From Bacteroidaceae bacterium (GTDB lineage Bacteria > Bacteroidota > Bacteroidia > Bacteroidales > Bacteroidaceae), in contig JAGCVH010000043.1 of assembly GCA_017962495.1 (NCBI GenBank), positions 28,439 through 92,438 of the forward strand: 64,000 nt of DNA. Reading direction: 5' to 3'. Below, in pieces: positions 4,407 to 20,022 of the stretch (the stretch's first letter is position 1; each line of letters begins with the position of its first letter). The position numbers were made by a program, and so were the translations under genes. Under the pieces are notes generated by a model. That model had not been told where the DNA came from. It worked only from the letters and a program-made list of their open reading frames with translations, and made no database searches.

Positions 4407-5528
4407 CTATATCCTCTCATAACCCCATTGGTCGAGGATTGGTCCCCAGGCATCGTTGACGAGTTGGATTGTACGCGGGTCGTACTGATACTTATTCTTC
4501 TTGTATCCACGCTTGCCCTCGATGTATTTCTCGATATTCGGACGGGCTTCTTCCCAACCAGGCAGAGATAGCTCACGATAAAGGCGTTCGGCAAGTCCCA
4601 TAGCATCGGCCTCCACATCCTCGAAGCGAATCTCCACGAGGTTGCCCTTCGGGATGTATTTCTTCTGTTCCTGATAGGCATCGTGCAGTTCCACATAATT
4701 ACGAAGGATGTTGCGTTCCATCTGGTCGAGGGGTATGGAGTGCAGTTCGAGTGGAGCAATGGTGTTGGTGAAGAACGAGCGTGAAGACTCAAACACGGTG
4801 TAGGGATTACGCATAAGATAGATGAACTTGGCGTTGGGGAACATCTCCACAAGCGTCTTTATCTTACCCGTGTGAGGGGGATTCTTCGAGAGATACTGGG
4901 CGTCCTTAACCTCGCGACGCGAGTTCCACATCGATACCTTCACAAGCTTCATAAACTTGTCTTTGAAGTCCTCAATCTCCTCCTCGGTGGCCTTCTTCAT
5001 GGTGAGGAAACGGTCGCAGTATTCCTGCATGCGTTCGGGGTAGAACCAGAAGAGGTAGTAGGATGTCGGACAGGTGTTCTGCAAAGCAAACTCCTCCTCT
5101 TGTGGCAGATCGGGCGCCAGCTCCATATTGTCGGTAGGACGATGACTGGGCATGAGCCACCCCATGACAGGCTTGAAGAGCCATTGCATGGCCATCATGT
5201 AGTGTGGGAACACGGTCTGATAAGTGGTGGTGTAGCCAAAGCGAGGGTCTTGTGCCAAGATATTGTGAACGAAGGTCGTACCTGAGCGCCAATGGCCAAG
5301 GATGAACACAGGGTCGTGCTCAAGCGGTTGGTTGGCAAGTAGTTTCTTGTATTTGCGTTCTTGCAAGGGAACGGCAACGCTCAGCAGGCGACAAATGGCT
5401 TTCGTGAGTCGGTATTTTGTCTTTTTTTCCTTGGCTATGTGTTGTCCTTCAGTTACTGCCTTAAATGTTTTCCAGTCGGCACCAACAAGTGTGTTGACAG
5501 GAAGTTTGCTAAATTCAATTAGTCCCAT
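4407..5528 (-). CDS. PAPS-dependent sulfotransferase (sulfotransferase_3 type)
   Basis: 373-residue cytosolic sulfotransferase. The 5'-phosphosulfate loop is GHWRSGTTFVHN at about 79-90, and the 3'-phosphate site is YLMRNPYTVFESS at about 237-249. It transfers a sulfonate from PAPS to a hydroxyl of an unknown acceptor. It is the last gene of cysC-cysD-DUF559-cysN-sulfotransferase, 40 bases after cysN. The layout (sulfotransferase with its own APS kinase and ATP sulfurylase) matches the Bacteroides thetaiotaomicron cluster reported to sulfonate steroids with flat A/B rings. Steroid acceptor is therefore a reasonable inference, strengthened by the steroid-reductase operon at 15.6-18.5 kb, but not shown by sequence alone. 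Carbohydrate or lipid acceptors remain possible. Confidence 0.85.
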   Translation of the reverse strand: MGLIEFSKLPVNTLVGADWKTFKAVTEGQHIAKEKKTKYRLTKAICRLLSVAVPLQERKYKKLLANQPLEHDPVFILGHWRSGTTFVHNILAQDPRFGYTTTYQTVFPHYMMAMQWLFKPVMGWLMPSHRPTDNMELAPDLPQEEEFALQNTCPTSYYLFWFYPERMQEYCDRFLTMKKATEEEIEDFKDKFMKLVKVSMWNSRREVKDAQYLSKNPPHTGKIKTLVEMFPNAKFIYLMRNPYTVFESSRSFFTNTIAPLELHSIPLDQMERNILRNYVELHDAYQEQKKYIPKGNLVEIRFEDVEADAMGLAERLYRELSLPGWEEARPNIEKYIEGKRGYKKNKYQYDPRTIQLVNDAWGPILDQWGYERI

Positions 5529-5534
5529 TCTTTA

Positions 5535-5558
5535 TTTGACAAATTGACAATTACACAA
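5535..5558. repeat. 8-bp tandem repeat in the cysN-sulfotransferase gap
   Basis: Three 8-bp units with the common pattern TTGACAA (TTTGACAA, ATTGACAA, TTACACAA) fill most of the 40-base gap. Confidence 0.5.
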
Positions 5559-5568
5559 TTCATTAGCC

Positions 5569-7068
5569 TTAGGCCTTTTCAACCTTAATCTCAATTCCTT
5601 GTCGGCTCAACTCCTTGACAGCCTTGTCGATGGCCTCATAGTGTTCTTGACCGATGCCAAGGGCTGGCAAGTTGAGCGTGGGAACATCCAAGACATTAAT
5701 CTCGCCCTCTTCAAGTGGACGGATAATCATACCCACAGCTGAGGTGTTGTTCGTGATTGGGTCGATAAGGATGAATGCTCCTGTTGCCCTGTTCTGCTTG
5801 TAGGCATCAAAGAAGAGAGTCTTGGCTGTGGTAATGCGAACGCAACCAATCTCGTTGAGTTGGAAGTCACGACCTTCCTGACGCTCCATTGTGTTCACAT
5901 CTACTCGATATTCAATATCGTCGATGCTTGCTCGAGTGGTGTTGGTATTGTGCTTCAGGAAGAACTGCTTCGTGCGGTCCATAGGCTCTTCGTCCATCCA
6001 TACGAGCATGGTCTGGAACGAACGCCCGATGTGAGGCAAGTTATCGGGATGAACAATCATCTCACCACGACTGATGTCGATTTCATCCTCCAGACAGAGC
6101 GTAACACTTTGTGGGCAGAATGCCTCTTCGAGTTCGCCTTCGTAGGTGACGATGCTCTTCACGCGGCTACGCTTCATCGATGGCAGGGCAACCACTTCGT
6201 CGCCTTTGTAAATGACACCGCTTGCTACCTTGCCACAGAATCCGCGGAAGTCGAGGTTCGGACGTAATACATACTGCACTGGATAGCGGAAGTCATGCAT
6301 ATTGCGGTCGTGATGGATGGGTACTGTCTCCAGATAGTCGAGCAACGACTGGCCCTTGTACCAAGGCGTGCGCGAACTTGTTTCCACCACATTATCGCCT
6401 TCTTTGGCAGAGATGGGGAAACAGGTTACATCATCGATGCCCAATTGTTCTGTGAGTGCAAGGTATTCCTTCTTGATGCAGTTGAACACTTGTTCGTCGA
6501 AGTCCACGAGGTCCATCTTGTTTACTGCCAACACAATATGCTTGATTCCCAAAAGTGAAACCAAGAAGGTGTGACGGCGCGTCTGAGTGATGATGCCATT
6601 ACGAGCATCTACCAGAATTATGGCAAGATTGGCCGTAGAGCCGCCCGTAATCATGTTGCGGGTATATTGTTCGTGACCCGGAGTGTCGGCAATGATGAAC
6701 TTGCGCTGGTTGGTGGAGAAGTAACGGTAAGCCACATCAATGGTGATACCTTCCTCGCGCTCAGCCTTTAGACCGTCTAACAGCAGGGCATAGTCAATCT
6801 CCCCTGCCCCGGCATTACCTACGCGCTTTGAGTCGCGCTCAAGGGCTTGAAGTTGGTCTTCATAAAGTTTCTTTGAGTCGAAGAGCAGGCGTCCTATGAG
6901 TGTGCTCTTGCCGTCGTCCACACTTCCTGCCGTCAGTAATCGAAGCAAATCCTTTTTCTCATCGGCATCAAGGAATGCTTTTATATCAATACCGACCCCA
7001 TCCCCTTTCCCTTCCCGAGGGAAGGGAGTATTTGCAGATAAGTCCATGTTATTTCTGTTATTATCCAT
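5569..7068 (-). CDS. cysN: ATP sulfurylase large (GTPase) subunit
   Basis: 499 residues. CysN hydrolyses GTP to drive formation of adenylyl-sulfate (APS) by CysD. GTPase motifs: GSVDDGKST (about 48-56), DTPGH (128-132), NKMD (183-186), followed by EF-Tu-like beta-barrel domains. The family usually begins about ten residues before DEKKDLL. Here there is an N-terminal addition of roughly 25 residues ([17 protein letters not shown]...) encoded by a G-rich repeat element and adjoining bases. The codon in the expected native start position (7 codons before DEKKD, giving IDIKAFL) reads ATT. This suggests an insertion supplied a new start. No CysC domain is fused; cysC is separate. Confidence 0.93.
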
Positions 7069-7504
7069 TCTGTTATAATGCTTTATTTATTATATTCAAT
7101 ACTTCTTCTATATTATTGAGAACTTTTTGATTTTCAAAACGAATCACTTGAAAGCCTAACCTCGATAAGGCCATTGTTCTATCAAGATCATTCATTTGCT
7201 GTTCTTCTTCATAATGGTAGTCCCCATCAAGTTCTATAACTAGTTTCTTCTCCAAACATACAAAGTCTACGATATAATCTCCAATAATATGTTGTCGATT
7301 AAACTTGACTCCTAATTGCTTTTTTCTTATATGATACCATAAATACTTTTCTGCTTCAGTTGGAAAGTCTTTATGTTTCCTAGATAGTTCCTTAAGCAGC
7401 AAGTATCTGTCAGGCGAAGCTGTATTGTATTTGTAATTCACTAATTATTATTATGCTTACCCTTACTCGTCCCTCCCTCGGGAGGGGTTTGGGGGTGGGG
7501 TCTC
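6994..7504. mobile_element. Candidate small element: DUF559 nuclease between inverted G-rich repeats
   Basis: Two similar G-rich elements of about 33 bp lie at 6994-7028 (reading on the minus strand) and 7471-7504 (reading on the plus strand). Both hold CCCTCGGGA followed by GGGG tracts and end in TGGGGTC. They point outward and enclose the DUF559 gene at 7073-7441. The enclosed DNA is clearly richer in A/T than cysN or cysD. The block splits an otherwise normal cysD-cysN pair. Target-site duplication is not visible to me, so mobility is inference. Confidence 0.5.
7073..7441 (-). CDS. DUF559 family endonuclease-fold protein
   Basis: 122 residues of the DUF559 family, related to the Vsr/restriction-endonuclease fold. 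The family pattern is visible: TEAEKYLW (about 28-35), then LGVKFNRQH, and the likely metal site IVDF ... ELDGDYH with conserved D and E residues (about 57-75), and VIRFEN near the end. The gene lies between cysD and cysN, where nothing is normally found, and its base composition is more A/T-rich than its neighbours. Inverted G-rich repeats flank it. A role in moving or maintaining those repeats is possible; a housekeeping repair function is the alternative. Confidence 0.8.
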
Positions 7505-7505
7505 C

Positions 7506-8414
7506 TTAGAAGTATCCCTCCCTCTTCTTTTGCTCCATCGAAGCTTCTTGGTCGAAGTCGATAACGCGGGTTGTGCGCTCGCTCTTGGTAGTAGTCATCA
7601 TCTCTTCAACAATCTCTTCGATGGTCGAAGCAGTTGACTCTACAGCACCGGTCAAAGGCCAGCAACCAAGCGTGCGGAAGCGAACCATGCGAGGATGAAT
7701 CTTCGGCACGAGTTCCTTGGGCAAGCGGTCGTCATCGGCCATAATCAGGTTGCCGTCAATCTCCACACAAGGCCTTTCTTTAGCATAATATAGAGGAACG
7801 ATGGGTATCTTCTCGAGACGAATGTATTGCCAGATATCCAACTCTGTCCAGTTCGACAAAGGGAAGACGCGAATGGACTCACCCTTATGCACACGCGAGT
7901 TGTAGATGTCCCACAACTCCGGACGCTGGTTCTTAGGATCCCATTGGTTGAACTTATCACGGAAGGAGAAGATTCGTTCCTTGGCACGACTCTTTTCCTC
8001 GTCTCGGCGAGCGCCACCAAACGCAGCATCGAACTTGTACTTATTCAGGGCGTCCAACAAAGCTTTGGTCTTCATGAGGTCGGTATGTACCTTACTTCCA
8101 TGAGTAAACGGACCTACGCCCTGACGGAAGGCTTCCATATTGGATTCGACGATGAGATTCCATCCGTGTTCTTTTGCATACGAGTCACGAAACTCTATCA
8201 TTTCGCGGAACTTCCATTTCGAATCGATGTGCATCAAAGGGAAAGGTACTTTGCCAGGGGCAAAAGCCTTCTCTGCCAAGCGTACCATCACACTTGAGTC
8301 CTTGCCTATGCTATAGAGCATGACAGGATTTTCAAACTCTGCAGCAACCTCGCGGATAATGTGTATTGACTCCGCTTCCAGTTCCTGAAGGTGAGATAAA
8401 CTATATTCTTTCAT
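7506..8414 (-). CDS. cysD: ATP sulfurylase small (adenylyltransferase) subunit
   Basis: 302 residues, the usual length. It joins sulfate and ATP into APS as the catalytic partner of CysN. The PP-loop reads [10 protein letters not shown] at about 35-44, the CysD variant of [22 protein letters not shown] and the [15 protein letters not shown] segment are typical. It overlaps the cysC stop by 4 bases (ATGA), so the two are translationally coupled. The partner cysN now starts 438 bases downstream because of the DUF559 block. Confidence 0.96.
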
Positions 8415-9010
8415 TCTTTTGTTTGTTGTTTCAATATCATTTCCACCACCTTCATGACGTTCTCCTGAAGGGGTGTTGTCGTTGTGTCAATAGTCAAGGC
8501 TGGATGTTCGGGTGCTTCGAAAGGTGCGGAAATGCCCGTAAACTCTTTCACCTCGCCTCGACGGGCGCGTGCATAGAGACCTTTCACATCACGACGCTCG
8601 CACTCGGATAAAGGCGTGGACAGATACACTTCGAAGAAGTCCTTCTCGCCAATGATGTTGCGCGCCATTTCGCGTATCTCCTCGGTTGGGCTCACGAAGC
8701 AAGCGAGGGTGATGATGCCTGTGTCAACCATCAGCTTACCCACTTCGGCTATGCGACGGATGTTCTCCCTGCGGTCTTCTGGTGAGAATCCCAAACCACG
8801 ATTGATGCCGTCGCGTATATTATCGCCATCGAGCAGACGGCAAAGCAGGCCTCTCTTATGGAGTTCGCGCTCCACACCGAGAGCAACGGTCGATTTGCCC
8901 GAACCGGACAAGCCCGTCATCCAAACCATCATTCCTTTCTGACCAAGCAATTGTTCGCGTTCCTGGCGCGTCATCATTCGGTCATAGATAGGATATATGT
9001 TTTCAGCCAT
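8411..9010 (-). CDS. cysC: Adenylylsulfate (APS) kinase
   Basis: 199 residues. It phosphorylates APS to PAPS, the sulfonate donor. The P-loop is GLSGSGKST (about 33-41), with [18 protein letters not shown] and DRRENIRR as in the family. First gene of the operon, 31 bases after a clear promoter. No PAPS reductase or sulfite reductase gene is present in the window, so PAPS made here can be used directly by the sulfotransferase. Confidence 0.96.
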
Positions 9011-9040
9011 ACATTATTATAATAATGTGTTTATGAAATG

Positions 9041-9071
9041 CAAAATTACAAAAAATCTTACAAAGTGCAAA
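9041..9071 (-). promoter_or_regulatory. Promoter of the cysC operon
   Basis: On the minus strand TTTG (9068-9071) is followed after 19 bp by TAATTTTG (9041-9048). Confidence 0.75.
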
Positions 9072-9128
9072 ATGATTTAGTATTTTAATGATTCCCAGCA
9101 ATTCCTAATTTCTCTTCTCCGAGCTCGA

Positions 9129-9166
9129 TAAAAAGAAAGAAGGAAGCCCGACGACTCCCTTCTTTT
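9129..9166 (-). terminator. Terminator of the SLC13 transporter gene
   Basis: AAGAAGG and CCTTCTT form a stem on the minus strand, followed by a T-rich tail. It separates the transporter from the cysC promoter. Confidence 0.7.
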
Positions 9167-9188
9167 ATGCACTTTCTCGCTATTCGCT

Positions 9189-10817
9189 TTACAATCCGTA
9201 GATGAGTGGAATGAGGAATACGGAGAGGACAAAGACAATGATGTTCATGGGCAGACCCACTTTGACAAAGTCGGTAAACCGATATCCTCCCACACCCTGA
9301 ACGATGAGGTTCGTCTGATAGCCAATAGGCGTTGAGAATGCCGAACTTGCGGCAAAACAGATGCAGACAACGAAAGGCATGGGATTGAGCCCCATGTTCT
9401 CGGCTACCGAAAGGGCAAGCGGGAAGGCAAGGGCTGCTGCTGCGTTGTTCGTGATCAGTTCCGTGAAGATATTCGTAATCACAAACAGAGCGGCCAGAAT
9501 GATATAGATGGACCATCGGCTTCCTTGAATGTTATCGGTTAGGGATATGATATATCCTCCCACGAAATCGGCAAAACCAGATTTGGTCATCGCTGTGGAG
9601 ATGGCGAAGGCGCATGCGATGGTGATAAGCACATCCCACGAGAAGAACTTGGTGTATTTCTTTGGTGAGAACATGCGTGTCCAAGCCATGATGATGGTAG
9701 TTACACACGCGAAGAAGAACATGTCTAACTTGAGGAACTTGAAGTTCTCTGTAACGATAGGCAATTCTCCAACCGTTGCGCCAATAATCATCATGATGAG
9801 CAAAGCCAAGGCAAAGAAGCGCTTCTTACTGCCCATGGGCGGCTCGAAGTCTCCAACGCGGTTTATCATCCAGAAGACTCGACTGTCTTTCCACGTAGGA
9901 TAGAAATCTTCGGGCGCATCTACGATGAGCGTGTCGTCGTGGGTCATCTTGATGTTGGTGTAATCTCCTTCGATGATGGACCCTCCTCTGTTGATGGCAC
10001 GAACATGTCCGCCGTAGCGACGATAGAAGTCAAACTCACGAAGCGTCTTACCCAAACCCGGGAAGCGATTGCCAAGCATGATTTCGTGGCGTATGGCTCC
10101 TGGTGGGACAATAGCCGTCTGGTCAGTATCTTCGTCAGATTTGCGTTGGTTAGGAAGCAGGTGCCGAGAGAAAAAGATGAGGTAGATGAGTCCCACAACG
10201 GCAATGATGATACCTACTTTCGAGAGTTCGAACATGTGCATTCCATCGATTCCGTATCGGAGGAGAATACCCTCTCCTGCCCCGTTCGCAACGGCTTTCA
10301 TCTCGTCCTTATGCTCTTGCAGCAACATACCGTGAAGCACCAAGTTGGTGGTGGTACCAATCAGCGTACAGATACCGCCAATGATGGTGGCATAACTCAG
10401 GGGTATGAGGAATTTGGTGGGGGGCAGTTTCATCTTGCGCGCCCAGTTCTTAATCATCGGGGCAAAGATAACGACAACGGGAGTGTTGTTAAAGAATGCC
10501 GAGATAAGTGATACCAAGGGGAAGAAGCGCAGGTTGGCTCTCGTGATGGTAACGTTCTTTTTAGGAAGAACTCGGAACATGATGCGTTCCAAGATTCCGC
10601 TCTTTCGCACTCCCTCGCTTACGAGATACAGCAGGGCAACGGTTATCATACCCTTGTTCGAGAAGCCTTTTATGGCCTCCTCGGGGTTGATGATTCCCGC
10701 ACATAGGAGCAGGACCACTGCAGTAAACAGGATAAGTCCTGGTCTCAAGTATTCGCGCATCAATGCAATTAGCATAAACACGAGTACGAGTGCTACAAAT
10801 ACGATTTGAAATGACAT
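9189..10817 (-). CDS. SLC13-family anion permease (probable sulfate uptake)
   Basis: 542-residue inner-membrane permease with about 10-12 hydrophobic segments. A soluble TrkA-C-like domain sits in the middle (about 215-285, containing GNRFPGLGKTLREFDFY). The C-terminal half carries the SLC13/DASS signature around ITNNAAAALAFPLALSVA and the mirrored FNNTPVVVIFAP segment in the N-terminal half. The family moves sulfate, dicarboxylates or other anions with sodium. Sulfate is favoured because the PAPS-synthesis operon follows directly on the same strand, but it has its own terminator and so is a separate unit. The 22-bp repeat array lies just upstream. Confidence 0.85.
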   Translation of the reverse strand: MSFQIVFVALVLVFMLIALMREYLRPGLILFTAVVLLLCAGIINPEEAIKGFSNKGMITVALLYLVSEGVRKSGILERIMFRVLPKKNVTITRANLRFFPLVSLISAFFNNTPVVVIFAPMIKNWARKMKLPPTKFLIPLSYATIIGGICTLIGTTTNLVLHGMLLQEHKDEMKAVANGAGEGILLRYGIDGMHMFELSKVGIIIAVVGLIYLIFFSRHLLPNQRKSDEDTDQTAIVPPGAIRHEIMLGNRFPGLGKTLREFDFYRRYGGHVRAINRGGSIIEGDYTNIKMTHDDTLIVDAPEDFYPTWKDSRVFWMINRVGDFEPPMGSKKRFFALALLIMMIIGATVGELPIVTENFKFLKLDMFFFACVTTIIMAWTRMFSPKKYTKFFSWDVLITIACAFAISTAMTKSGFADFVGGYIISLTDNIQGSRWSIYIILAALFVITNIFTELITNNAAAALAFPLALSVAENMGLNPMPFVVCICFAASSAFSTPIGYQTNLIVQGVGGYRFTDFVKVGLPMNIIVFVLSVFLIPLIYGL

Positions 10818-10863
10818 AATACTTATTTCAATACTTAATGTTCTTTACTATATCCTTTATGCC

Positions 10864-11060
10864 TTCCGGCAATCGAACCTATATTCAAAGGCAATCGAAC
10901 CTATATTCGAGGAGAATCGAACCTATGTTCAATGGCAATCGAGCCTATGCCTTCCGAATTGTGCCTTAGGCCTTCCGCGATAAGCCCTTAGGCCTTCCGT
11001 CATAACCCTTAGGTCTTCTGCGATAAGCCTTAGGCCTTCTGTGATAAACCTTTAGGCCTA
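10864..11060. repeat. 21-22 bp tandem repeat array between carB and the SLC13 gene
   Basis: Two dialects are joined. CGAACCT or CGAGCCT words start at 10874, 10896, 10918 and 10940, exactly 22 bp apart. TAGGCCTT-type words start at 10967, 10989, 11010, 11031 and 11053, 21-22 bp apart. The last one supplies the TAG stop codon of carB (minus strand). Nothing else is seen in this 240-base gap. Confidence 0.85.
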
Positions 11061-14000
11061 CTTGTACTCTTCCCAAGACTTGATGGCCAGTTGGTCGGGC
11101 TTTATCGTGCAGAATGCAGTTATGAAAGCTGCTGCCAGACGGCTATTCGTGAGCAAGGGAATATTCAGGTCAACGGCTGTACGACGAATCTTGTATCCGT
11201 TCGTTAGCTCGCCTGCCGACAAGTCTTTGGGGATGTTCACCACGAGGTCAATCTCATGCTGATGCAAGAGGTCGAGTGCTTGTGGCTTCATGTCGGTGTC
11301 GCTCGGCCAGTGAACAAGCGTGTTGGGAATGCCCTGCTCTGTCAGATAGCGGCTTGTGCCTCCTGTCGCATACAAGGGATAGCCGTGCTCATGGAGCATG
11401 CGTGCAGCATCGAGCATAGCAGCCTTCTCTTTCGCACCACCTGTCGATAGCAAGATGCCGCGCTGAGGAATGCGGTGTCCCACACTCAGCATTGCCTTCA
11501 TCAGGGCGCAGTTGGTATCGTCGCCCAAGCAACCTACTTCTCCTGTCGAACTCATGTCTACGCCCAGCACGGGATCGGCCTTTTGCAGACGGTTGAAGGA
11601 GAACTGGCTTGCCTTGATGCCCACATAGTCGAAGTCGAAGAAACTCTTGTGCAATTTCTCTACGGGTAGGCCCATCATTACGCGAGTGGCCATCTCTATG
11701 AGGTTGACCTTCAATACCTTCGACACGAAGGGGAAGGAACGCGAAGCACGTAAATTACATTCGATGACCTTAATCTCATTGTCTCGTGCCAGATACTGAA
11801 TATTGAAGGGACCTGAGATGCAAGGTTCACGGGCAATCTGAGCCGATATCTTCTTGATGCGACGAACGGTCTCGACATAAAGCTTCTGGGCGGGGAACTG
11901 AATTGTAGCATCGCCCGAGTGAACGCCTGCAAACTCGATGTGTTCGGAGATCGCGTATGCAATGATTTCTCCATTCTTGGCCACAGCATCCATCTCCACC
12001 TCCTTCGTGTTCTGCATAAACTTGGAGATGACAACCGGGTGCTTTTTCGACACATTTGCGGCCAGACGCAGGAAGCGTTCCAATTCCTCTTGATTCGAGC
12101 AGACATTCATTGCGGCACCGGAAAGCACATAGGAAGGACGCACCAGGACGGGGAACCCAACGCGTTGGATGAAGGCATTCACGTCCTCCATCGTAGTCAA
12201 GGCACTCCACTCTGGCTGGTCCACTCCGATGCGGGAAAGCATAGCAGAGAACTTTTCGCGGTCTTCGGCGTTGTCGATATACTTGGCTTGTGTACCCAGA
12301 ATGGGAACTTTCTGTGCATCGAGCTTAAGTGCCAGATTGTTAGGAATTTGTCCGCCAGTTGATATGATTACACCCTGCGGTGCTTCCAATTCCACGATAT
12401 CCATAACGCGCTCAAATGTGAGCTCGTCGAAATAAAGTCGGTCGCACATGTCATAATCCGTCGAAACCGTCTCGGGATTATAGTTAATCATGACTGAGCG
12501 CAGGCCTTGCTTGCGAATGGTATTCAGGGCTTGAACACCACACCAGTCGAACTCAACACTCGAACCAATGCGATATGCTCCGCTTCCAAGCACTACGATG
12601 CTGCGATTGTCGTGTTCGAAAGGTATATCGTGAGCAACACCACTGTAGGTCAAATAGAGGTAATTGGTCTGAGCTGGATACTCGGCGGCAAGTGTGTCTA
12701 TCTGCTTCACAAAAGGAAGTATGCCCATCGCCTTACGACAATTGCGTACTGCAATTACGGCTTCCTCCATATCCATCTCATCCTCAAGTCCGATGGCGCG
12801 AGCAATCTGGAAATCGCTGAATCCATATACTTTCGCCTTGCGCAGGAGTTCGGCATCAAGGCCTTCGAGCCCTTTGCACTCATGCAGTTGATTATCGAGC
12901 GTGCGGATATTCTGTAATTTGCGAAGGAACCATTTGTCTATCTTCGTCAAGTCGTATATTTGGTCGATACTGTATCCTTGGCGCATCGCTTTCGAGATAA
13001 CAAGCACTCGCTTGTCGGTAGGCTCGCGAAGGGCAGCGTCTATGTTCTCGATCTCCAGCTCTTTGTTTTCGACAAATCCATGCATGCCTTGGCCTATCAT
13101 GCGTAAGCCCTTTTGGATGGCTTCCTCGAATGTGCGTCCGATGGCCATCACCTCTCCTACCGACTTCATGCTGCTGCCCAACTCGCGGTCGACACCCCTG
13201 AACTTACCCAAGTCCCAACGAGGAATCTTACAAACCACATAGTCGATTGCAGGCTCGAAGAAGGCTGTTGTGTTCTTCGTGACTGAGTTCTTCAAGTCGA
13301 AGAGACCATATCCGAGTCCAAGTTTACATGCGACAAATGCCAAGGGATAGCCTGTGGCCTTACTTGCCAACGCTGATGAACGACTAAGACGAGCATTTAC
13401 CTCAATCACTCGGTATTCCTCGCTTTGCGTGTCGAAAGCAAACTGAATGTTACATTCACCCACAATGCCGATGTGGCGAATAATGCGAAGACTGAGCTCG
13501 CGCAACTTCTGTACTTCGTGGTTGTTGAGGGTCTGAGCCGGTGCAACAACGATGGATTCGCCTGTGTGAATGCCAAGCGGGTCGAAGTTCTCCATGCTGC
13601 AGACGGCAATGCAATTGTCGTAGCGGTCACGAACAACCTCAAACTCTATCTCCTTCCAGCCTTTCAAGCTCTTTTCAACTAAAACCTGAGGCGAGAAAGA
13701 GAAGGCCTTTTCTGCCAAGCGATTAAGTTCTTCCTCATTGTCGCAGAAGCCTGAACCAAGACCACCTAAGGCAAAAGCGGCACGAATAATCACGGGATAG
13801 CCCAGCTCGGCAGCTGCCTTGCGAGCATCTTCAATATTCTCACATGCCTGACTCTTGATGGTGTTGACGTTAATCTCGTCGAGGCGCTCAACAAACAATT
13901 CACGGTCTTCCGTATCAATAATGGCTTGAACGGGCGTACCCAATACTTCAATACCATACTTTTCCAGAATGCCTTCCTTGAAGAGCGTTACTCCACAGTT

Positions 14001-14285
14001 GAGTGCCGTTTGTCCGCCAAAGGCAAGGAGTATGCCTTGTGGGCGCTCTTTCTCAATAACCCTTTCCACAAAATATGGCGTGACAGGCAGGAAGTATATG
14101 TGGTCGGCAACGCCTTCACTTGTCTGGACGGTCGCAATATTAGGGTTGATAAGTACTGTCTCTATACCCTCTTCTTTGAGTGCTTTTAAGGCTTGCGAAC
14201 CGCTGTAGTCTAATTCGCCTGCCTCGCCTATCTTCAGGGCTCCAGAGCCCAGGAGCAGGACTTTCTTAATATGTTTGGCTGGCAT
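11058..14285 (-). CDS. carB: Carbamoyl-phosphate synthase large subunit
   Basis: 1075 residues, normal for CarB. It makes carbamoyl phosphate from bicarbonate, ammonia and two ATP for arginine and pyrimidine synthesis. Two homologous ATP-grasp halves are visible: the first from KKVLLLGSGALKIGEAGE with LVEKSLKGWKEIEFEVVRD, the second from VVLGSGAYRIGSSVEFDWC. An MGS-like regulatory domain ends the protein (GILLSTGGAKEKAAM, YPLYATGGTSRYL). It begins 2 bases after carA ends, so the subunits are coupled. The stop codon lies inside the first unit of a TAGGCCT repeat array. Confidence 0.97.
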   Translation of the reverse strand: MPAKHIKKVLLLGSGALKIGEAGELDYSGSQALKALKEEGIETVLINPNIATVQTSEGVADHIYFLPVTPYFVERVIEKERPQGILLAFGGQTALNCGVTLFKEGILEKYGIEVLGTPVQAIIDTEDRELFVERLDEINVNTIKSQACENIEDARKAAAELGYPVIIRAAFALGGLGSGFCDNEEELNRLAEKAFSFSPQVLVEKSLKGWKEIEFEVVRDRYDNCIAVCSMENFDPLGIHTGESIVVAPAQTLNNHEVQKLRELSLRIIRHIGIVGECNIQFAFDTQSEEYRVIEVNARLSRSSALASKATGYPLAFVACKLGLGYGLFDLKNSVTKNTTAFFEPAIDYVVCKIPRWDLGKFRGVDRELGSSMKSVGEVMAIGRTFEEAIQKGLRMIGQGMHGFVENKELEIENIDAALREPTDKRVLVISKAMRQGYSIDQIYDLTKIDKWFLRKLQNIRTLDNQLHECKGLEGLDAELLRKAKVYGFSDFQIARAIGLEDEMDMEEAVIAVRNCRKAMGILPFVKQIDTLAAEYPAQTNYLYLTYSGVAHDIPFEHDNRSIVVLGSGAYRIGSSVEFDWCGVQALNTIRKQGLRSVMINYNPETVSTDYDMCDRLYFDELTFERVMDIVELEAPQGVIISTGGQIPNNLALKLDAQKVPILGTQAKYIDNAEDREKFSAMLSRIGVDQPEWSALTTMEDVNAFIQRVGFPVLVRPSYVLSGAAMNVCSNQEELERFLRLAANVSKKHPVVISKFMQNTKEVEMDAVAKNGEIIAYAISEHIEFAGVHSGDATIQFPAQKLYVETVRRIKKISAQIAREPCISGPFNIQYLARDNEIKVIECNLRASRSFPFVSKVLKVNLIEMATRVMMGLPVEKLHKSFFDFDYVGIKASQFSFNRLQKADPVLGVDMSSTGEVGCLGDDTNCALMKAMLSVGHRIPQRGILLSTGGAKEKAAMLDAARMLHEHGYPLYATGGTSRYLTEQGIPNTLVHWPSDTDMKPQALDLLHQHEIDLVVNIPKDLSAGELTNGYKIRRTAVDLNIPLLTNSRLAAAFITAFCTIKPDQLAIKSWEEYK

Positions 14286-14287
14286 AA

Positions 14288-15370
14288 TTATAGGAGTTTC
14301 ACGAATTTGTCAAATAGATCTTCTGCATCCACGGGACCTGAACAAGCTTCAGGATGGAACTGAGCCGATAACCAGGGGTTCTTCTTGTGACGTATGCCCT
14401 CATTAGAGCCGTCGTTCATATTCACGAACAGGGGTTCCCAATCAGCACCAAGCGTCTTGTCGTCAACGGCATATCCATGATTCTGGCTTGTAATATAACA
14501 ATGTGTTGTACCCAATTGGCGTACGGGTTGATTGTGGCTTCGATGGCCATACTTCAACTTATATATCTTTGCCCCAGCTGCTTTTGCCAACAATTGGTTA
14601 CCCATACAGATTCCCATGCAAGGACGAACAACGGGATTGGCAAGGAACTTGCGAATGTTCTGAACCGTAGCCTCGCAGATGTCAGGATTACCTGGGCCGT
14701 TTGCAAGGAATAGGCCGTCGAACTCCATATCGTTGAAGTCATAATCCCAGGGAACGCGAATCACGTCCACCCCTCGATTAATAAGGCAACGAATGATATT
14801 CTCTTTCACACCACAATCCACAAGTACGACTTTCTTCGCATTTGCTTGTCCTGACTTGTATGTAATTATTTCCTTACAGCTTACTTGCTCAACGAAGTTC
14901 ACGCCTTCATATTCTGCCGTAGGAATGTTGTCTGGTTCATCGTCAAACAGAATCTTTCCCATCATCACTCCTTGTTCACGCAGAACCTTTGTGAGTTCGC
15001 GGGTATCAACTCCTGTCACACCCGTTATCTGCTCGCGCTTAAGCCAGTCGGCAAGGCATTCCTTTGCGTTCCAGTGGCTATAGGCTTCACTATAGTCCGT
15101 CACGATAATGGCGCGAGGATGTATGCGGTCGCTTTCCATATAGGTGGTGAGACCATTAGGCTCTTTTGACAACGCGGGAACTCCGTAATTCCCGATAAGT
15201 GGATAGGTTAAGACCATTATCTGGCCCTCATAAGAGGGGTCGGTAAGGCTCTCTGGATACCCCATCATAGCGGTGTTGAATACAACCTCGCCTGCAACGG
15301 GTTTTTCGTATCCGAACGATGTTCCATGGAACTTTGTCCCATCATCCAACAACAATGTTACTTTTCTCAT
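14288..15370 (-). CDS. carA: Carbamoyl-phosphate synthase small (glutaminase) subunit
   Basis: 360 residues. It hydrolyses glutamine and feeds ammonia to CarB. The class I amidotransferase domain shows the nucleophile in CMGICMGNQLLA and the HPEAC histidine/glutamate near the C terminus (SAQFHPEACSGP). The N-terminal domain starts with VTLLLDDGTKFHGTSFGYEK. First gene of carAB, about 210 bases downstream of a promoter with a terminator-like hairpin in the leader. Confidence 0.97.
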   Translation of the reverse strand: MRKVTLLLDDGTKFHGTSFGYEKPVAGEVVFNTAMMGYPESLTDPSYEGQIMVLTYPLIGNYGVPALSKEPNGLTTYMESDRIHPRAIIVTDYSEAYSHWNAKECLADWLKREQITGVTGVDTRELTKVLREQGVMMGKILFDDEPDNIPTAEYEGVNFVEQVSCKEIITYKSGQANAKKVVLVDCGVKENIIRCLINRGVDVIRVPWDYDFNDMEFDGLFLANGPGNPDICEATVQNIRKFLANPVVRPCMGICMGNQLLAKAAGAKIYKLKYGHRSHNQPVRQLGTTHCYITSQNHGYAVDDKTLGADWEPLFVNMNDGSNEGIRHKKNPWLSAQFHPEACSGPVDAEDLFDKFVKLL

Positions 15371-15437
15371 ACAATCTTTATATACTACCTTTCGTGGTTA
15401 TTGATAAATATTCTTATTTGCGAAACCAAACGGATGG

Positions 15438-15485
15438 ATAAAAGAAAGGGCACGCTTACCAGTTGTTGAATACCGGAGGTGCCCT
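15438..15485 (-). terminator. Terminator-like hairpin in the carA leader (possible attenuator)
   Basis: On the minus strand AGGGCAC pairs with GTGCCCT, with a further CCGG/CTGG pairing inside, followed by TTTCTTTT. It lies about 100 bases after a TATCTTTG promoter element and 68 bases before carA. It is thus inside the carAB leader. An alternative role is terminator of the upstream steroid operon, whose last stop is 168 bases upstream. Confidence 0.6.
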
Positions 15486-15588
15486 ATGTAAATCTTATCT
15501 GCCAAAGGCATAAACTTTAAGTGAATCAATGCCATTATGCAATTAAGCTTTATTTGTTCCATTTAACGCGTTTTTACAAAATGCCGTG

Positions 15589-15596
15589 CAAAGATA
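15589..15596 (-). promoter_or_regulatory. -7 element of the carAB promoter
   Basis: TATCTTTG on the minus strand. A T-rich -33 region lies about 20 bp upstream. It falls between the SDR stop at 15653 and the leader hairpin. Confidence 0.6.
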
Positions 15597-15652
15597 CAAA
15601 TAAATGACAAATTATTAAACAACGTAGCCATTTTTTTTCAATTTATTTGTCA

Positions 15653-16495
15653 TTATTTTAAGTATTCCTTAACTACTTCCTCTGTCCTTTGCCAAAGTTC
15701 ACTCATTTGCTTGTGCTGTTGATACTTCTCGCTGAGCTTTACGATATGGTTCGAGCGGTTGAATGTTCCCGTTTGTTCAGCCTTGTCCTCATCAAGTAAC
15801 AAATGAATGGCAGTATCTGCTCCTTGTCGGGGTGTTCGGATGAATGGACGGAAGAAAAGATCCGTAAGCGGGTCGAAGAACATTTGCATGCGTATAATTT
15901 CTGTATCCACAATACCTGGGTCGGAAGCATTCACGGTAATGCCTTTATCCTTAAGCCGACTTGCAAGGTCGAGCGTAAAGAGCGTAATGGCAAGTTTGGT
16001 GTTGCTGTAAACTGGTATGCGCCAAAATGCGCCTTTGCGGCCTCGTGTGAAAAAGTCAGGGAAATCGAGATGCCCCATACGATAGACAAGTGATGCCATA
16101 TTCACGATACGGCTCCCTTGCCCCATTAATGGTAATAGTAAACGAGTAAGTAGATAAGGACCAACATAATTAACACTAACCGTTCTTTCTAAACCGTCAA
16201 CAGTCATATGACGACCTGTCTCCATCGTCCCAGCATTGTTCATCAGCAAGTCGAGATGCTCAAAGCGTTCCTTTACTTTATCGGCAAAAACTTTAACGGA
16301 TGCGAGATTTGCTAAATCAATACCTATTACCTCTATATTATTATTACCTGTTTCCTTAATAAGTTGCTTCCGCTTCTCCTCTGCCGTTTTTGGACAATAG
16401 CAAGCCATTATCGTATAGAAACCTTGTTCGGCTACGGCTTTGGCTTCTTCATATCCCATACCACTATCGGCTCCAGTAATGATTGCAAGTTTCAT
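15653..16495 (-). CDS. Short-chain dehydrogenase (candidate 3-hydroxysteroid dehydrogenase)
   Basis: 280-residue classical SDR. The start at 16495 is chosen because MKLAIITG begins the Rossmann fold directly and overlaps the preceding stop by 4 bases (ATGA). Motifs: TGADSGMG cofactor loop (7-14), NNAG (86-89), Ser135, Tyr163 and Lys167 in YSNTK. It uses NAD(P)H to interconvert a hydroxyl and a ketone; the substrate is not fixed by the motifs. It is third in a tight 5-alpha-reductase, flavin reductase, SDR operon. In gut Bacteroidales such a trio is reported to make isoallo-bile acids, where the SDR acts as 3-beta-hydroxysteroid dehydrogenase. That role is inference. Confidence 0.85.
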   Translation of the reverse strand: MKLAIITGADSGMGYEEAKAVAEQGFYTIMACYCPKTAEEKRKQLIKETGNNNIEVIGIDLANLASVKVFADKVKERFEHLDLLMNNAGTMETGRHMTVDGLERTVSVNYVGPYLLTRLLLPLMGQGSRIVNMASLVYRMGHLDFPDFFTRGRKGAFWRIPVYSNTKLAITLFTLDLASRLKDKGITVNASDPGIVDTEIIRMQMFFDPLTDLFFRPFIRTPRQGADTAIHLLLDEDKAEQTGTFNRSNHIVKLSEKYQQHKQMSELWQRTEEVVKEYLK

Positions 16496-17739
16496 GGGTT
16501 TTGGTCCTTTTCTATGCGAGCAATTTCTTTCTTTATATCGCTTGGAAGTTCTTCCATAATATGCTGATGACAAGCCATTTCAAGTGTGTACATTCGACCA
16601 ATACAATAATTGCTGTGTTTGCATCCGCACCTATGGTGTGGGTCGTCTTTAAGACGATTCACGAAGTCTGGTTCATTTAGCAAAGAACGTGCCATCTGCA
16701 CCGCTTCAAAACCATGCGAAAGCACTTCGTTGATAACATCTCCAGCCACAAGTCCTCCTACATAAATAAACTTCATATCGGGCATAGCCTCGCGGAATTT
16801 TAATGCATCTTCCAAGAAGAAAGCTTCTTTGTAGTCAACGGTAGGCGTGAGAAACTTCTTAACGAAAGGTTTTCCTGCACGAATGCCATATTTAAGCCAG
16901 GCCTTATCCATATAGTGAGTCATCGTTTGCAAGGGCATTTCACCGCGCATGACATAAAGTGGAGTGGCACTTACAAGTCCTCCACTCAACACCAATGCAT
17001 GAACACCCAATTCTTGCAGACGACGTGCTACGGGGATGCTGTGTTCCTCAAGCGAAATGCCATGCTTAAGACCATCGCGCATATTCATCTTGCATACCAC
17101 AGCCATATCGTCTTTTACCGCTTTCATCACTTCCTCGATGCACATCGTCATAAATCGCATTCTGTTTTCCAATGAACCTCCATATTCATCGCGACGATGA
17201 TTGAAGTAAGGATTGAGGAATTGGTCGATAAGATATCCATGTCCACAGTGTATCTCTACCTCATCGAAGCCTGCCTCGCGAGCAATATTAACGGCCTCGC
17301 CAAACTTCTTTGCCAAAATCGGGAGTTCCTCACGACGAAGGCCGCGAACGATAGTAGGACTATATAGATTAAAACCATTGCATGCTCCCACCGGAATGCA
17401 TCCACATATGTCCTTGTGGCTCATGTTTCCACAATGACCAAGCTGTATGCCTGCTGCAGCACCTTCGCTATGAATACCGTCTGTAAGCTTTCGTAAGCCA
17501 GGAATAATCTCTCGCTTCATTACCAACTGACGATCAAAGCTTAATCCGCTCTCCGTTACAGCGGCATAGGCAATAGTGGTCAACCCTACTCCCCCTCGTG
17601 CTACACTTGTGTGATAATCGTATAACATTTGGCTTGGTTCGTGGCCAGGACACATGCTTTCGAAGGCGGCACTTCGTATAGTCCTATTTCGAAGTGTAAG
17701 TGGACCAATATGAGCCGGTTCAAATATCTTGTTCTCCAT
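16492..17739 (-). CDS. NADH:flavin oxidoreductase, Old Yellow Enzyme type (candidate steroid 5-beta-reductase)
   Basis: 415 residues. An FMN-binding TIM barrel of the OYE/BaiCD class is seen: NRTIRSAAFES near the N terminus, IQLGHCG at about 95-101, and the HCGHGYLIDQFL ... NHRRDEYGGSLENRMRF block at about 176-208. Four cysteines (371, 373, 379, 390) near the end could hold an iron-sulfur cluster. The large FAD/NAD(P) domain found in full-length BaiCD-like enzymes is absent, so electrons must come another way. Located between the 5-alpha-reductase and the SDR with 12-base and minus-4-base junctions. The family reduces C=C bonds next to a carbonyl, which fits a 3-oxo-delta-4 steroid. Confidence 0.85.
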   Translation of the reverse strand: MENKIFEPAHIGPLTLRNRTIRSAAFESMCPGHEPSQMLYDYHTSVARGGVGLTTIAYAAVTESGLSFDRQLVMKREIIPGLRKLTDGIHSEGAAAGIQLGHCGNMSHKDICGCIPVGACNGFNLYSPTIVRGLRREELPILAKKFGEAVNIAREAGFDEVEIHCGHGYLIDQFLNPYFNHRRDEYGGSLENRMRFMTMCIEEVMKAVKDDMAVVCKMNMRDGLKHGISLEEHSIPVARRLQELGVHALVLSGGLVSATPLYVMRGEMPLQTMTHYMDKAWLKYGIRAGKPFVKKFLTPTVDYKEAFFLEDALKFREAMPDMKFIYVGGLVAGDVINEVLSHGFEAVQMARSLLNEPDFVNRLKDDPHHRCGCKHSNYCIGRMYTLEMACHQHIMEELPSDIKKEIARIEKDQNP

Positions 17740-17751
17740 TAGATGATTGTA

Positions 17752-18519
17752 TTAATAAATGTAGGGGAATATACGTTTGCGCTTTCCCACGGCATCATCT
17801 CCGAACTCTTGTCTATACCGCTTATTTATTGCGTGCGCGCGAGGAATCAAGTTTGCGGCAGTCCATATGGGGAATACCCATGCCACGAGTGTATTAGCAG
17901 CTAAAGCAAATCCCACCCACTCCATCAATTCACCCAGGTAGTTAGCACTGGTCACATAACGATACATTCCTTTCTGAGGTAAGTAATGATGGGTATCGCC
18001 CGGTTTCCTTAGATTGCGTATTACATGGTCACTATGCCAGTTGATGGTGATGCCTACAAGGAATAGCAAAATGCCAAGAACGGCATTCCATCGACATAGA
18101 TATGAAACTCCTTCTGAGAAATCAGGATTGGGAAACCAATAAAGGCCTGCGCCTTGCATGAATCCGTTTATCACATTGAATGTGATACCCATAAGCATAA
18201 TGGCAACAGGCATTTGACTATGCCCGTTCATCATCCAAGGAAAGAGGAAACTACGCTGGAAGTAGTGTATCTCAAATAAAGAGAAAAGCACCAATTGTGG
18301 CAAATGCCATTGAAGCGGAGAACTAAACCAGATAAACCACATTATAAGGAACACTGGAGCCTCCATTAGCATCCATGCCCAACGATTATCGATGCTCCAT
18401 CCCCATTGCTTGGAACGAAACTGCCCATACCCAGCATTAACGAAATAAAGGCTGACAAAGACAACTACTGCCATTCCTAACATAAGCCATATCAGATGGT
18501 TTAGTATGTCTTGTGTCAT
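17752..18519 (-). CDS. Steroid 5-alpha-reductase family membrane protein
   Basis: 255 residues, the size of human SRD5A1/2, with about six or seven hydrophobic segments. The C-terminal NADPH-binding region is strikingly like the human enzymes: HSDHVIRNLRKPGDT, then YVTSANYLGELMEW, ending with a basic segment and IFPYIY. E53 in LMEAPVF and Y86 in HYFQRSF occupy the places of SRD5A2 E57 and Y91, which hold the substrate C3 ketone. It should therefore reduce a 3-oxo-delta-4 steroid to the flat 5-alpha form. It follows the PurF-like gene by 38 bases and precedes the OYE gene by 12. Confidence 0.9.
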   Translation of the reverse strand: MTQDILNHLIWLMLGMAVVVFVSLYFVNAGYGQFRSKQWGWSIDNRWAWMLMEAPVFLIMWFIWFSSPLQWHLPQLVLFSLFEIHYFQRSFLFPWMMNGHSQMPVAIMLMGITFNVINGFMQGAGLYWFPNPDFSEGVSYLCRWNAVLGILLFLVGITINWHSDHVIRNLRKPGDTHHYLPQKGMYRYVTSANYLGELMEWVGFALAANTLVAWVFPIWTAANLIPRAHAINKRYRQEFGDDAVGKRKRIFPYIY

Positions 18520-18557: not shown

Positions 18558-19964
18558 CTAGAAATGCGATGTGCCGTCGAAACAATGCGTACAAACCTTT
18601 TCCTTTGGTAATCCGATGCTCCGTATGAGAATTTCAAGCGTATTGAATTTCAGTGAAGAGAGCCCTAATCGATTACCTATCTCCTCAACCATCTGGCGAT
18701 ATTTAGGCGAGTCGGTCTTGGCATACTCTTCTAGATTCTTATTGGGATCTCCTTCCAAATCAGCAATAACGCGTCGGGTTATAAGTTCGAGATCACTTTT
18801 GGATGCAGAGAAGTTGATAAACGGACATCCATATATTAGTGGCGGACAAGCAATACGCATGTGTACCTCTTTGGCACCAAGTTCGAACAAACCTCGAATG
18901 TTATCACGAAGCTGAGTTCCACGAACAATACTGTCGTCGCAGAATAGGCAACGCTTACCTACTAGCATGTCGCGATTGGGGATAAGCTTCATCTTAGCCA
19001 CAAGGTTTCGAGTCTCCTGTGTTGCAGGCATGAAGCTACGTGGCCATGTAGGAGTGTATTTGGAAATAGCTCTGCGGAAGGGAACTCCCAGGCCTTCGGC
19101 ATAGCCAGTGGCCATACCTACGCCGCTGTCAGGTATTCCGCTTACACTATCCACCTGAACATTATCCTCCTTGGCCATTTCCAAGCCACATTGGTGGCGC
19201 ATATCTTCCACATTGCGTCCTTCGTAGGTGGATGTGGGGAAACCATAATATACCCATAGGAATGAGCAAACTTGCATTTCTATTTCAGGCTTACGCATTT
19301 GTTCGACTCCATTGGGTGTCAAACGAACTACCTCGCCTGGTCCTATGAATCGTTCCACTTCATAACCTAAGTTGGGGAACGCAGTACTCTCTGAAGAAGC
19401 AGCAAAAGCATCATCCTTGCGTCCAATAATGATTGGAGTTCTGCCCAGGCGATCGCGAGCAGCAATCAGTCCATCCTCTGTCAGGATGAGCATTGAGCAT
19501 GACCCTACCACTTTATTGTACACATTCTCTATCCCGCTTACCCAATCTTTACCACGAGTAATCAGGTGTGCTACAAGTTCAGTTTGATTTGTTCTACCAG
19601 ATGACATCTCAGAGAAGTGTCCACCATCGTCGAGTAACTCATTGGCTATTTCTTCCAAATTATTTATTTTCCCAACAGTAACGATGGCCATACGTCCCAG
19701 ATGCGAACGCATGAGTATGGGTTGCGGTTCAGTGTCGGATATAACACCAATGCCGCTATTTCCTTCAAATTTATCTAATTCGTCCCCAAAACGAGAGCGA
19801 AAATAAGCATTCTCCAAATTGTGAATGCTACGAAAAAAACCTTTGCTAGCAGAGAAGGTGGCCAAACCACCGCGTTTTGTACCAAGATGTGAATTATAAT
19901 CGGTGCCGTAGTACAGATCCATTATACACGGCTTAGTTGAGATGGTTCCGAAAAATCCTCCCAT
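18558..19964 (-). CDS. Amidophosphoribosyltransferase-like protein lacking the N-terminal cysteine
   Basis: 468 residues with the two domains of PurF: an N-terminal Ntn-type glutaminase fold (ARDRLGRTPIIIG, SSESTAF) and a C-terminal phosphoribosyltransferase with the PRPP loop CDDSIVRGTQ. PurF becomes active when Cys follows the initiator Met; here the start is MGGFFGTIS, with no cysteine at that place and no better start upstream. It either uses free ammonia, has lost glutaminase activity, or does something else. It also lacks the longer form typical of a main purine PurF. First gene of the operon that contains the steroid-type reductases. Confidence 0.8.
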   Translation of the reverse strand: MGGFFGTISTKPCIMDLYYGTDYNSHLGTKRGGLATFSASKGFFRSIHNLENAYFRSRFGDELDKFEGNSGIGVISDTEPQPILMRSHLGRMAIVTVGKINNLEEIANELLDDGGHFSEMSSGRTNQTELVAHLITRGKDWVSGIENVYNKVVGSCSMLILTEDGLIAARDRLGRTPIIIGRKDDAFAASSESTAFPNLGYEVERFIGPGEVVRLTPNGVEQMRKPEIEMQVCSFLWVYYGFPTSTYEGRNVEDMRHQCGLEMAKEDNVQVDSVSGIPDSGVGMATGYAEGLGVPFRRAISKYTPTWPRSFMPATQETRNLVAKMKLIPNRDMLVGKRCLFCDDSIVRGTQLRDNIRGLFELGAKEVHMRIACPPLIYGCPFINFSASKSDLELITRRVIADLEGDPNKNLEEYAKTDSPKYRQMVEEIGNRLGLSSLKFNTLEILIRSIGLPKEKVCTHCFDGTSHF

Positions 19965-19990: not shown

Positions 19991-20022
19991 CAAAGTTATA
20001 AAAAGTCTCGCATATATGCAAA
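19991..20022 (-). promoter_or_regulatory. Promoter of the PurF-like/steroid reductase operon
   Basis: On the minus strand TTTG (20019-20022), 20 bp, TAACTTTG (19991-19998). It gives a leader of about 20 bases before the start at 19964. Confidence 0.65.

Follow-up and report, generated by a model that had tools for sequence, protein, structure and literature searches.

A 64,000-nucleotide stretch of DNA from a gut bacterium of the Bacteroidaceae, near relatives of which live in ruminants (GenBank assembly GCA_017962495.1, contig JAGCVH010000043.1, positions 28,439 to 92,438 of the forward strand; hereafter the window) carries two gene sets that may modify steroids, a sulfation set that ends in a sulfotransferase and a set of steroid reductases. 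Both sets belong to known types, and the genus to which the window belongs contains operons that join a steroid 5-alpha-reductase to the sulfotransferase. The explanation given modest preference here is that the two modules act in series in the window's lineage, on sterols sooner than on bile acids: the reductase set would convert 3-oxo-delta-4 (or 5-beta) steroids to flat 5-alpha, 3-beta-hydroxy steroids, and the neighbouring cluster, which would supply 3'-phosphoadenosine 5'-phosphosulfate (PAPS), would then sulfonate the 3-beta-hydroxyl. In other species of the genus the 5-alpha-reductase gene stands between cysN and the sulfotransferase gene, in two of them with a 3-beta-hydroxysteroid dehydrogenase (HSD)-like enzyme, and this would constitute a reduce-and-sulfonate operon; the likely substrates would be dietary, microbial or host sterols and the products stanol sulfates. 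At the level of gene order, these relatives independently back the chain that the initial annotation had proposed, in which flattening is followed by sulfonation. Proximity of the two sets in the window is suggestive only and could be coincidence. No report of both sets side by side appeared among the titles and abstract beginnings listed by searches of open-licence papers.

The sulfation and reductase genes of the window

Family scans of translated open reading frames (ORFs) find the genes of both sets open on the minus strand, with the 5-alpha-reductase and sulfotransferase genes about 12 kb apart and carAB separating the sets, confirming the initial annotation's description of two neighbouring sets on one strand. 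The sulfation set (4407-10817) consists, in its direction of reading (10817 to 4407), of the following genes.

9189..10817, minus strand: SLC13/DASS-type transporter, probably for sulfate uptake (PF03600, 4e-57; PF00939, 5e-16)
8411..9010, minus strand: apsK, adenylylsulfate kinase, predicted to form PAPS (TIGR00455, 229 bits, above cut-off)
7506..8414, minus strand: cysD, sulfate adenylyltransferase small subunit (NF009214, 493 bits, above cut-off)
7073..7441, minus strand: DUF559 protein, between cysD and cysN (PF04480, 5e-35)
5569..7068, minus strand: cysN, sulfate adenylyltransferase large subunit (NF003478, 687 bits, above cut-off)
4407..5528, minus strand: predicted PAPS-dependent sulfotransferase of the Sulfotransfer_3 family (PF13469, 7e-40; no NCBIfam match)

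The reductase set (15653-18519) is read from 18519 to 15653.

17752..18519, minus strand: SRD5A-like steroid 5-alpha-reductase (PF02544, 1e-35)
16492..17739, minus strand: BaiCD-like flavin oxidoreductase (OYE) of 415 amino acids, predicted 5-beta-reductase/dehydrogenase (PF00724, 3e-51)
15653..16495, minus strand: short-chain dehydrogenase (SDR), predicted 3-beta-hydroxysteroid dehydrogenase (PF00106, 2e-33; TGxxxGxG and YxxxK motifs)

The sulfotransferase is likely the counterpart of the steroid sulfotransferase of Bacteroides: it has 63% sequence identity to the enzyme of genome G080 (matched to Phocaeicola massiliensis), where the gene order is identical and the transporter likewise adjoins apsK. 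A preference of the Bacteroides enzyme for flat A/B rings was reportedly found by Yao et al. in 2022. A 5-alpha-reductase profile built from 21 relatives scores 232 bits with the bacterial SRD5A structure 7c83 and 175 bits with human SRD5A2 (7bw1), compared to 50 bits with an enoyl-CoA reductase, and the glutamate and tyrosine that align with the SRD5A2 pair E57/Y91 are invariant across the 21 rows. The best NCBIfam match of the OYE is BaiCD (4e-55), but its 187 bits fall far below the cut-off of 825. The 5-alpha-reductase and OYE genes are separated by 12 bp, and the OYE and SDR genes overlap by four bases if the SDR begins at the ATG at 16495, its likely start.

Reductase genes in the sulfation operons of relatives

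In seven of the twelve genomes of the genus in which the 5-alpha-reductase and sulfotransferase genes are linked, the two genes adjoin or are one gene apart, and cysN is visible on the other side in six. The order is cysN, 5-alpha-reductase, sulfotransferase in five (G010, G240, G138, G221, G244), all on one strand, and the mechanically called ORFs are separated by 3-100 and 21-63 bp. This is the layout expected of a single reduce-and-sulfonate operon, seen directly in these five genomes; a sixth (G222) has a 3Beta_HSD-like gene encoding 512 amino acids between the 5-alpha-reductase and the sulfotransferase. In the seventh (G228), the series 5-alpha-reductase, HSD, sulfotransferase runs into the contig end. 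Misassembly of the cysN-5-alpha-reductase-sulfotransferase order is unlikely because five genomes share it, the contigs being 16 to 79 kb long, and two of the operon-type arrangements are also present in named records (L138, L139). The operon-type 5-alpha-reductases are open and 68-81% identical to one another, and the nonsynonymous distance (dN, 0.13-0.24) is lower than the synonymous distance (dS, 0.8-1.8, partly saturated) in 15 of 15 pairs.

Sequence identity between the operon-type sulfotransferases and that of the window is 60-64%, and membership of the family leaves the acceptor unfixed. The operon-type enzymes might therefore act on something else, such as a plant phenol or a triterpenoid, with the 5-alpha-reductase serving another unsaturated 3-ketone; this is improbable, given that the 5-alpha-reductase matches steroid reductases far above enoyl-CoA reductase and that 3Beta_HSD-family genes adjoin it in G222, G228, G146 and G422. 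The 512-residue HSD belongs to the extended SDRs, has matches to PF01370 and PF01073 (3Beta_HSD) and is found in 6 of the 139 genomes of the genus; in G146 it is beside the 5-alpha-reductase without sulfation genes, and in a second operon of G228 it is between cysN and the sulfotransferase without a 5-alpha-reductase. A search for OYE in the genomes of G222, G228 and G146 found none, and the five genomes with the direct order have OYE elsewhere in the genome. Other copies of the HSD gene (L109:7885-9477, L110:8232-9770, L112:7535-9112) lie in 20 kb stretches that show neither a 5-alpha-reductase nor sulfation genes, and Prevotella sp. UBA2725 has a homologue (68%) directly upstream of a 5-alpha-reductase (L161:6658-8914), in a flank without sulfation genes.

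The six complete operon-type 5-alpha-reductases form one clade (support 97/94) in a tree of 72 rows, which omits the partial gene of G228 and the fragmented gene of G217 and carries long-branch warnings. A single insertion was considered, but the cysN and sulfotransferase flanks of these loci reject one clade at a cost of 260 log units (approximately unbiased test, p 3e-45), in a test that was run after the sulfotransferase tree had been seen and with the bootstrap unsettled. The sulfotransferase trees (36, 39 and 32 rows) comprise the loci at hand out of 98 genomes; the sulfotransferases of operons without a 5-alpha-reductase interleave with the operon-type ones, and on the 32-row tree of cysN plus sulfotransferase the operon trait undergoes at least five changes of state, a count that is blind to gain versus loss. 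The 5-alpha-reductase thus seems to have been repeatedly gained or lost in one slot. Repeated capture in that slot and one early capture followed by many losses both fit these data, and either history speaks for a link between the reductase and the sulfotransferase.

Other genes in these loci vary as well. Two operon-type species have a GDSL-type hydrolase gene, whose product might be a pathway esterase, after the sulfotransferase gene and in the same orientation (L083:12510-13178, L084:8740-9423). The space between cysD and cysN can hold a large helicase of the DUF4011 type that ends in an MTES_1575 nuclease-like part (L084:12889-18066, L086:14429-18268 and others). This helicase matches the PADLOC models PDC-S37 and Hhe, and of 20 further loci of the genus 14 have parts of it beside cysN. 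The DUF559 gene occupies the same slot in the window, G078, G245, G128, G187 and G218, and has no PADLOC match.

Chance, transcription and linkage

The remaining five linked genomes (G000, G078, G147, G162, G245) have carAB between the 5-alpha-reductase and sulfotransferase genes, which share a strand and are separated by 12 to 15 kb. Whether this arrangement reflects coupling has to be weighed against a series of observations that tell against a functional chain, the first of which concern the sequence around and between the two sets.

9041..9071, minus strand: Bacteroidales-type promoter-like site (TTTG-N19-TAnnTTTG), before apsK-cysD-DUF559-cysN-sulfotransferase
9136..9165, minus strand: terminator-like stem of 13 pairs plus a T run, after the transporter and before apsK
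11058..14285, minus strand: carB, identified by reading the translation
14288..15370, minus strand: carA, identified by reading the translation
18558..19964, minus strand: purF-like gene (TIGR01134, 186 bits, cut-off 350)
19991..20022, minus strand: Bacteroidales-type promoter-like site from the pattern scan, before the purF-like and reductase genes

The pattern TTTG, 17-22 bases, TAnnTTTG, taken here to be the Bacteroidales-type promoter consensus, was scored against shuffled sequence and occurs 12 times in the window versus 1.4 times in shuffles. A scan for terminators gives 15 sites where 14.4 are expected by chance; the 13-pair stem is the longest of these, and the case for it, which comes from stem length, is weak. 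The purF-like gene ends 38 bp before the reductase set and is perhaps co-transcribed with it. The carA and carB genes are outside the steroid pathway, and the gap between carB and the transporter (10818-11057) is filled by short imperfect repeats. Because each set has its own upstream promoter-like site, the two sets look like separate transcription units, as far as such prediction goes; carAB and two promoter-like sites separate them, and a single operon holding both was rejected for the window.

The juxtaposition of carAB and sulfation genes also recurs without reductases beside them. Sulfation genes adjoin carAB in G174, G247, G229 and G186, genomes with no match to the 5-alpha-reductase, and are beside carB (the only one of the pair seen) in G237, where the 5-alpha-reductase is on another contig; G224 and G241 keep the reductases beside carAB but have the sulfotransferase 33 and 40 kb away, respectively. 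Given the separate promoter-like sites and this gene order, proximity in the window is weak evidence, and proximity alone was rejected as proof of coupling. That it is a coincidence, with the sulfation genes beside carAB for other reasons, the reductases landed on the other side and the modules independent, is a serious prospect, not far short of even. What speaks against coincidence is the 5-alpha-reductase inside the sulfation operon of relatives, and the close placement of the two sets in a genome of another family (G357). The proposal of flattening followed by sulfonation is supported in part, by the presence of both sets and by the operon-type relatives, but not, as it was worded, by the layout of the window.

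Counts within the genus point both ways. Out of 139 genomes, 67 have the 5-alpha-reductase, 98 the sulfotransferase and 53 both (the fragmented gene of G217 being included in the 67 and the 53). The two genes are no more than 20 kb apart in 12 of the 53, whereas random placement in 2.8 Mb genomes, taken as independent, would give 0.76, an excess that is overstated in that the genomes are related and independent events few, and fragmentary assemblies hide links. On the other side, the two genes, compared by eye, are on the same contig in 14 of the 53 and on different contigs in 39; presence of one is weakly correlated with presence of the other (Fisher p 0.04; the genomes are incomplete); and the sulfotransferase of G110, a genome with no match to the 5-alpha-reductase, groups with the operon-type sulfotransferases.

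Linkage outside the genus is rare. An even sample of 121 genomes of the family has a full 5-alpha-reductase in 13 and the sulfotransferase in 37, three weak matches to the former (E 1e-5 to 1e-3) being left uncounted. Ten genomes have both; the genes are linked in G000, G078 and G010, all of the window's genus, are on different contigs in G095 of the same genus, and are linked in none of the six genomes outside it, where all six have them on different contigs. In a draw from the order, the 5-alpha-reductase is present in 90 of 393 genomes, 80 of which were searched for the sulfotransferase (the nine with the weakest matches and G000 were omitted; G013 is common to the family and order draws). 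There were matches in 28, of which 13 are below E 1e-180, at the level of orthologues; one of these 13 (G357) has the genes linked and the other 12 have them on different contigs. In G357 a distance of 6.3 kb, occupied by recA, a peptidase gene and others, separates the two operons, which share a strand; its congener G641 has the 5-alpha-reductase set but shows no sulfation genes within the 22.7 kb that were read, and the 5-alpha-reductase is present in two of eight genomes of that genus. Among the 15 weaker sulfotransferase matches, the distance to the 5-alpha-reductase is 3.8 kb in G422 and 66 kb in G596; the sulfotransferase-like gene of G422 has only 35% identity and is on the opposite strand from the 5-alpha-reductase, behind a TonB receptor. 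In G422 (L215:2826-12965) the 5-alpha-reductase gene overlaps a 3Beta_HSD-family gene. The best 80 named 5-alpha-reductase loci among the matches listed, with flanks of up to 10 kb, have an OYE homologue in 71 and an SDR homologue in 68, and have sulfation genes in three and the sulfotransferase in two. As to chance co-occurrence, by which the initial annotation was prepared to be judged, the pattern outside the genus resembles a random one and that inside the genus is an excess.

Substrates and comparison with known systems

The initial annotation named sulfonated isoallo-bile acids as a possible end product, which is doubtful. PF02275, the bile salt hydrolase family, gave no match in any of the 13 genomes of the genus (70-100% complete) whose sets are linked or nearly so, and was found in four of four comparators. 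Records matched to genomes of the genus come from the rumen of a goat (G138), the omasum of roe deer (G147, G146) and red deer (G221, G224), and G078 is matched to RUG14659, in which RUG presumably stands for rumen. Bile does not reach the foregut. Because no linked or near-linked genome has a match to the bile salt hydrolase family, the records are from rumen and omasum and the foregut is free of bile, sterols are favoured over bile acids as predicted substrates, short of proof. Against this, PF02275 is present in 7 of the 139 genomes, five of the matches extending over nearly the whole model; G161, G183 and G234 have such a match together with both the 5-alpha-reductase and the sulfotransferase, unlinked; and G095 (L203) is from water deer rectum. 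Isoallo-bile acids also have precedent: such reductase sets accompany formation of isoallolithocholic acid (isoalloLCA) in Parabacteroides merdae and others, according to a passage of PMC10382948, and a Bacteroides sulfotransferase is listed as sulfonating isoalloLCA in part of PMC11271093. With the distribution of PF02275 and the rumen and omasum records on the other side, sulfated isoallo-bile acids are an unlikely end product.

If the substrates are sterols, a more specific proposal can be put forward tentatively: ruminant-gut Bacteroidaceae may possess a dedicated reduce-and-sulfonate operon, in which the 5-alpha-reductase, accompanied in some by a 3-beta-HSD of its own, would have entered the same slot between cysN and the steroid sulfotransferase on several occasions, and which would turn sterols into 5-alpha-stanol sulfates in a compartment free of bile. 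The steps are already known singly, and an arrangement that joins both would identify organisms that carry a flat steroid through to its sulfate and provide a two- or three-gene set for testing. The rarity of the bile salt hydrolase family in the genus points to sterols and possibly to the foregut, a little-studied site for microbial steroid chemistry. Bacterial sulfation is reported, in a passage of PMC13008668, to abolish the regulatory T cell-inducing activity of isoalloLCA.

The closest known system for sulfation is that of Bacteroides, in which the cholesterol sulfotransferase BT_0416 (BtSULT) has the putative PAPS genes Bt_0411 to Bt_0415 next to it; B. ovatus and B. fragilis carry identical clusters (Le et al. 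2022, PMC9417993, as excerpted). The substrates listed for BtSULT in part of PMC11271093 are cholesterol, isoalloLCA and dehydroepiandrosterone, and isoalloLCA sulfonation by the Bacteroides enzyme is already mentioned in reviews (PMC11271093, PMC13008668, each in part). The window resembles this system in having the transporter, PAPS genes and adjoining sulfotransferase in one cluster (PMC9417993), a comparison made through the homologue in G080, which keeps a gene order like that of Bt_0411-Bt_0416; the window differs by the DUF559 insert, and its relatives differ by the 5-alpha-reductase (in two species with the 3Beta_HSD-like gene) beside the sulfotransferase. The reductase set of the window, an SRD5A-type 5-alpha-reductase with adjoining BaiCD-like flavin oxidoreductase and SDR, is like the Parabacteroides merdae-type cluster, in that 5-alpha-reductases of Bacteroidota are clustered with a predicted 3-beta-hydroxysteroid dehydrogenase and a BaiCD-like flavin oxidoreductase (PMC10382948, in the same passage), but it is placed between the purF-like gene and carAB, and the operon-type relatives have the 5-alpha-reductase away from OYE. 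A third likeness is to gut Bacillota, in which a PF01073-like 3-beta-hydroxysteroid dehydrogenase/isomerase is fused to a 5-beta-reductase, according to part of a preprint (PMC11722256), so that there too a 3-beta-HSD is coupled to a reductase of a steroid double bond; in the genus of the window, by contrast, the predicted reduction is 5-alpha and not 5-beta, the genes are separate, and they are coupled to sulfation.

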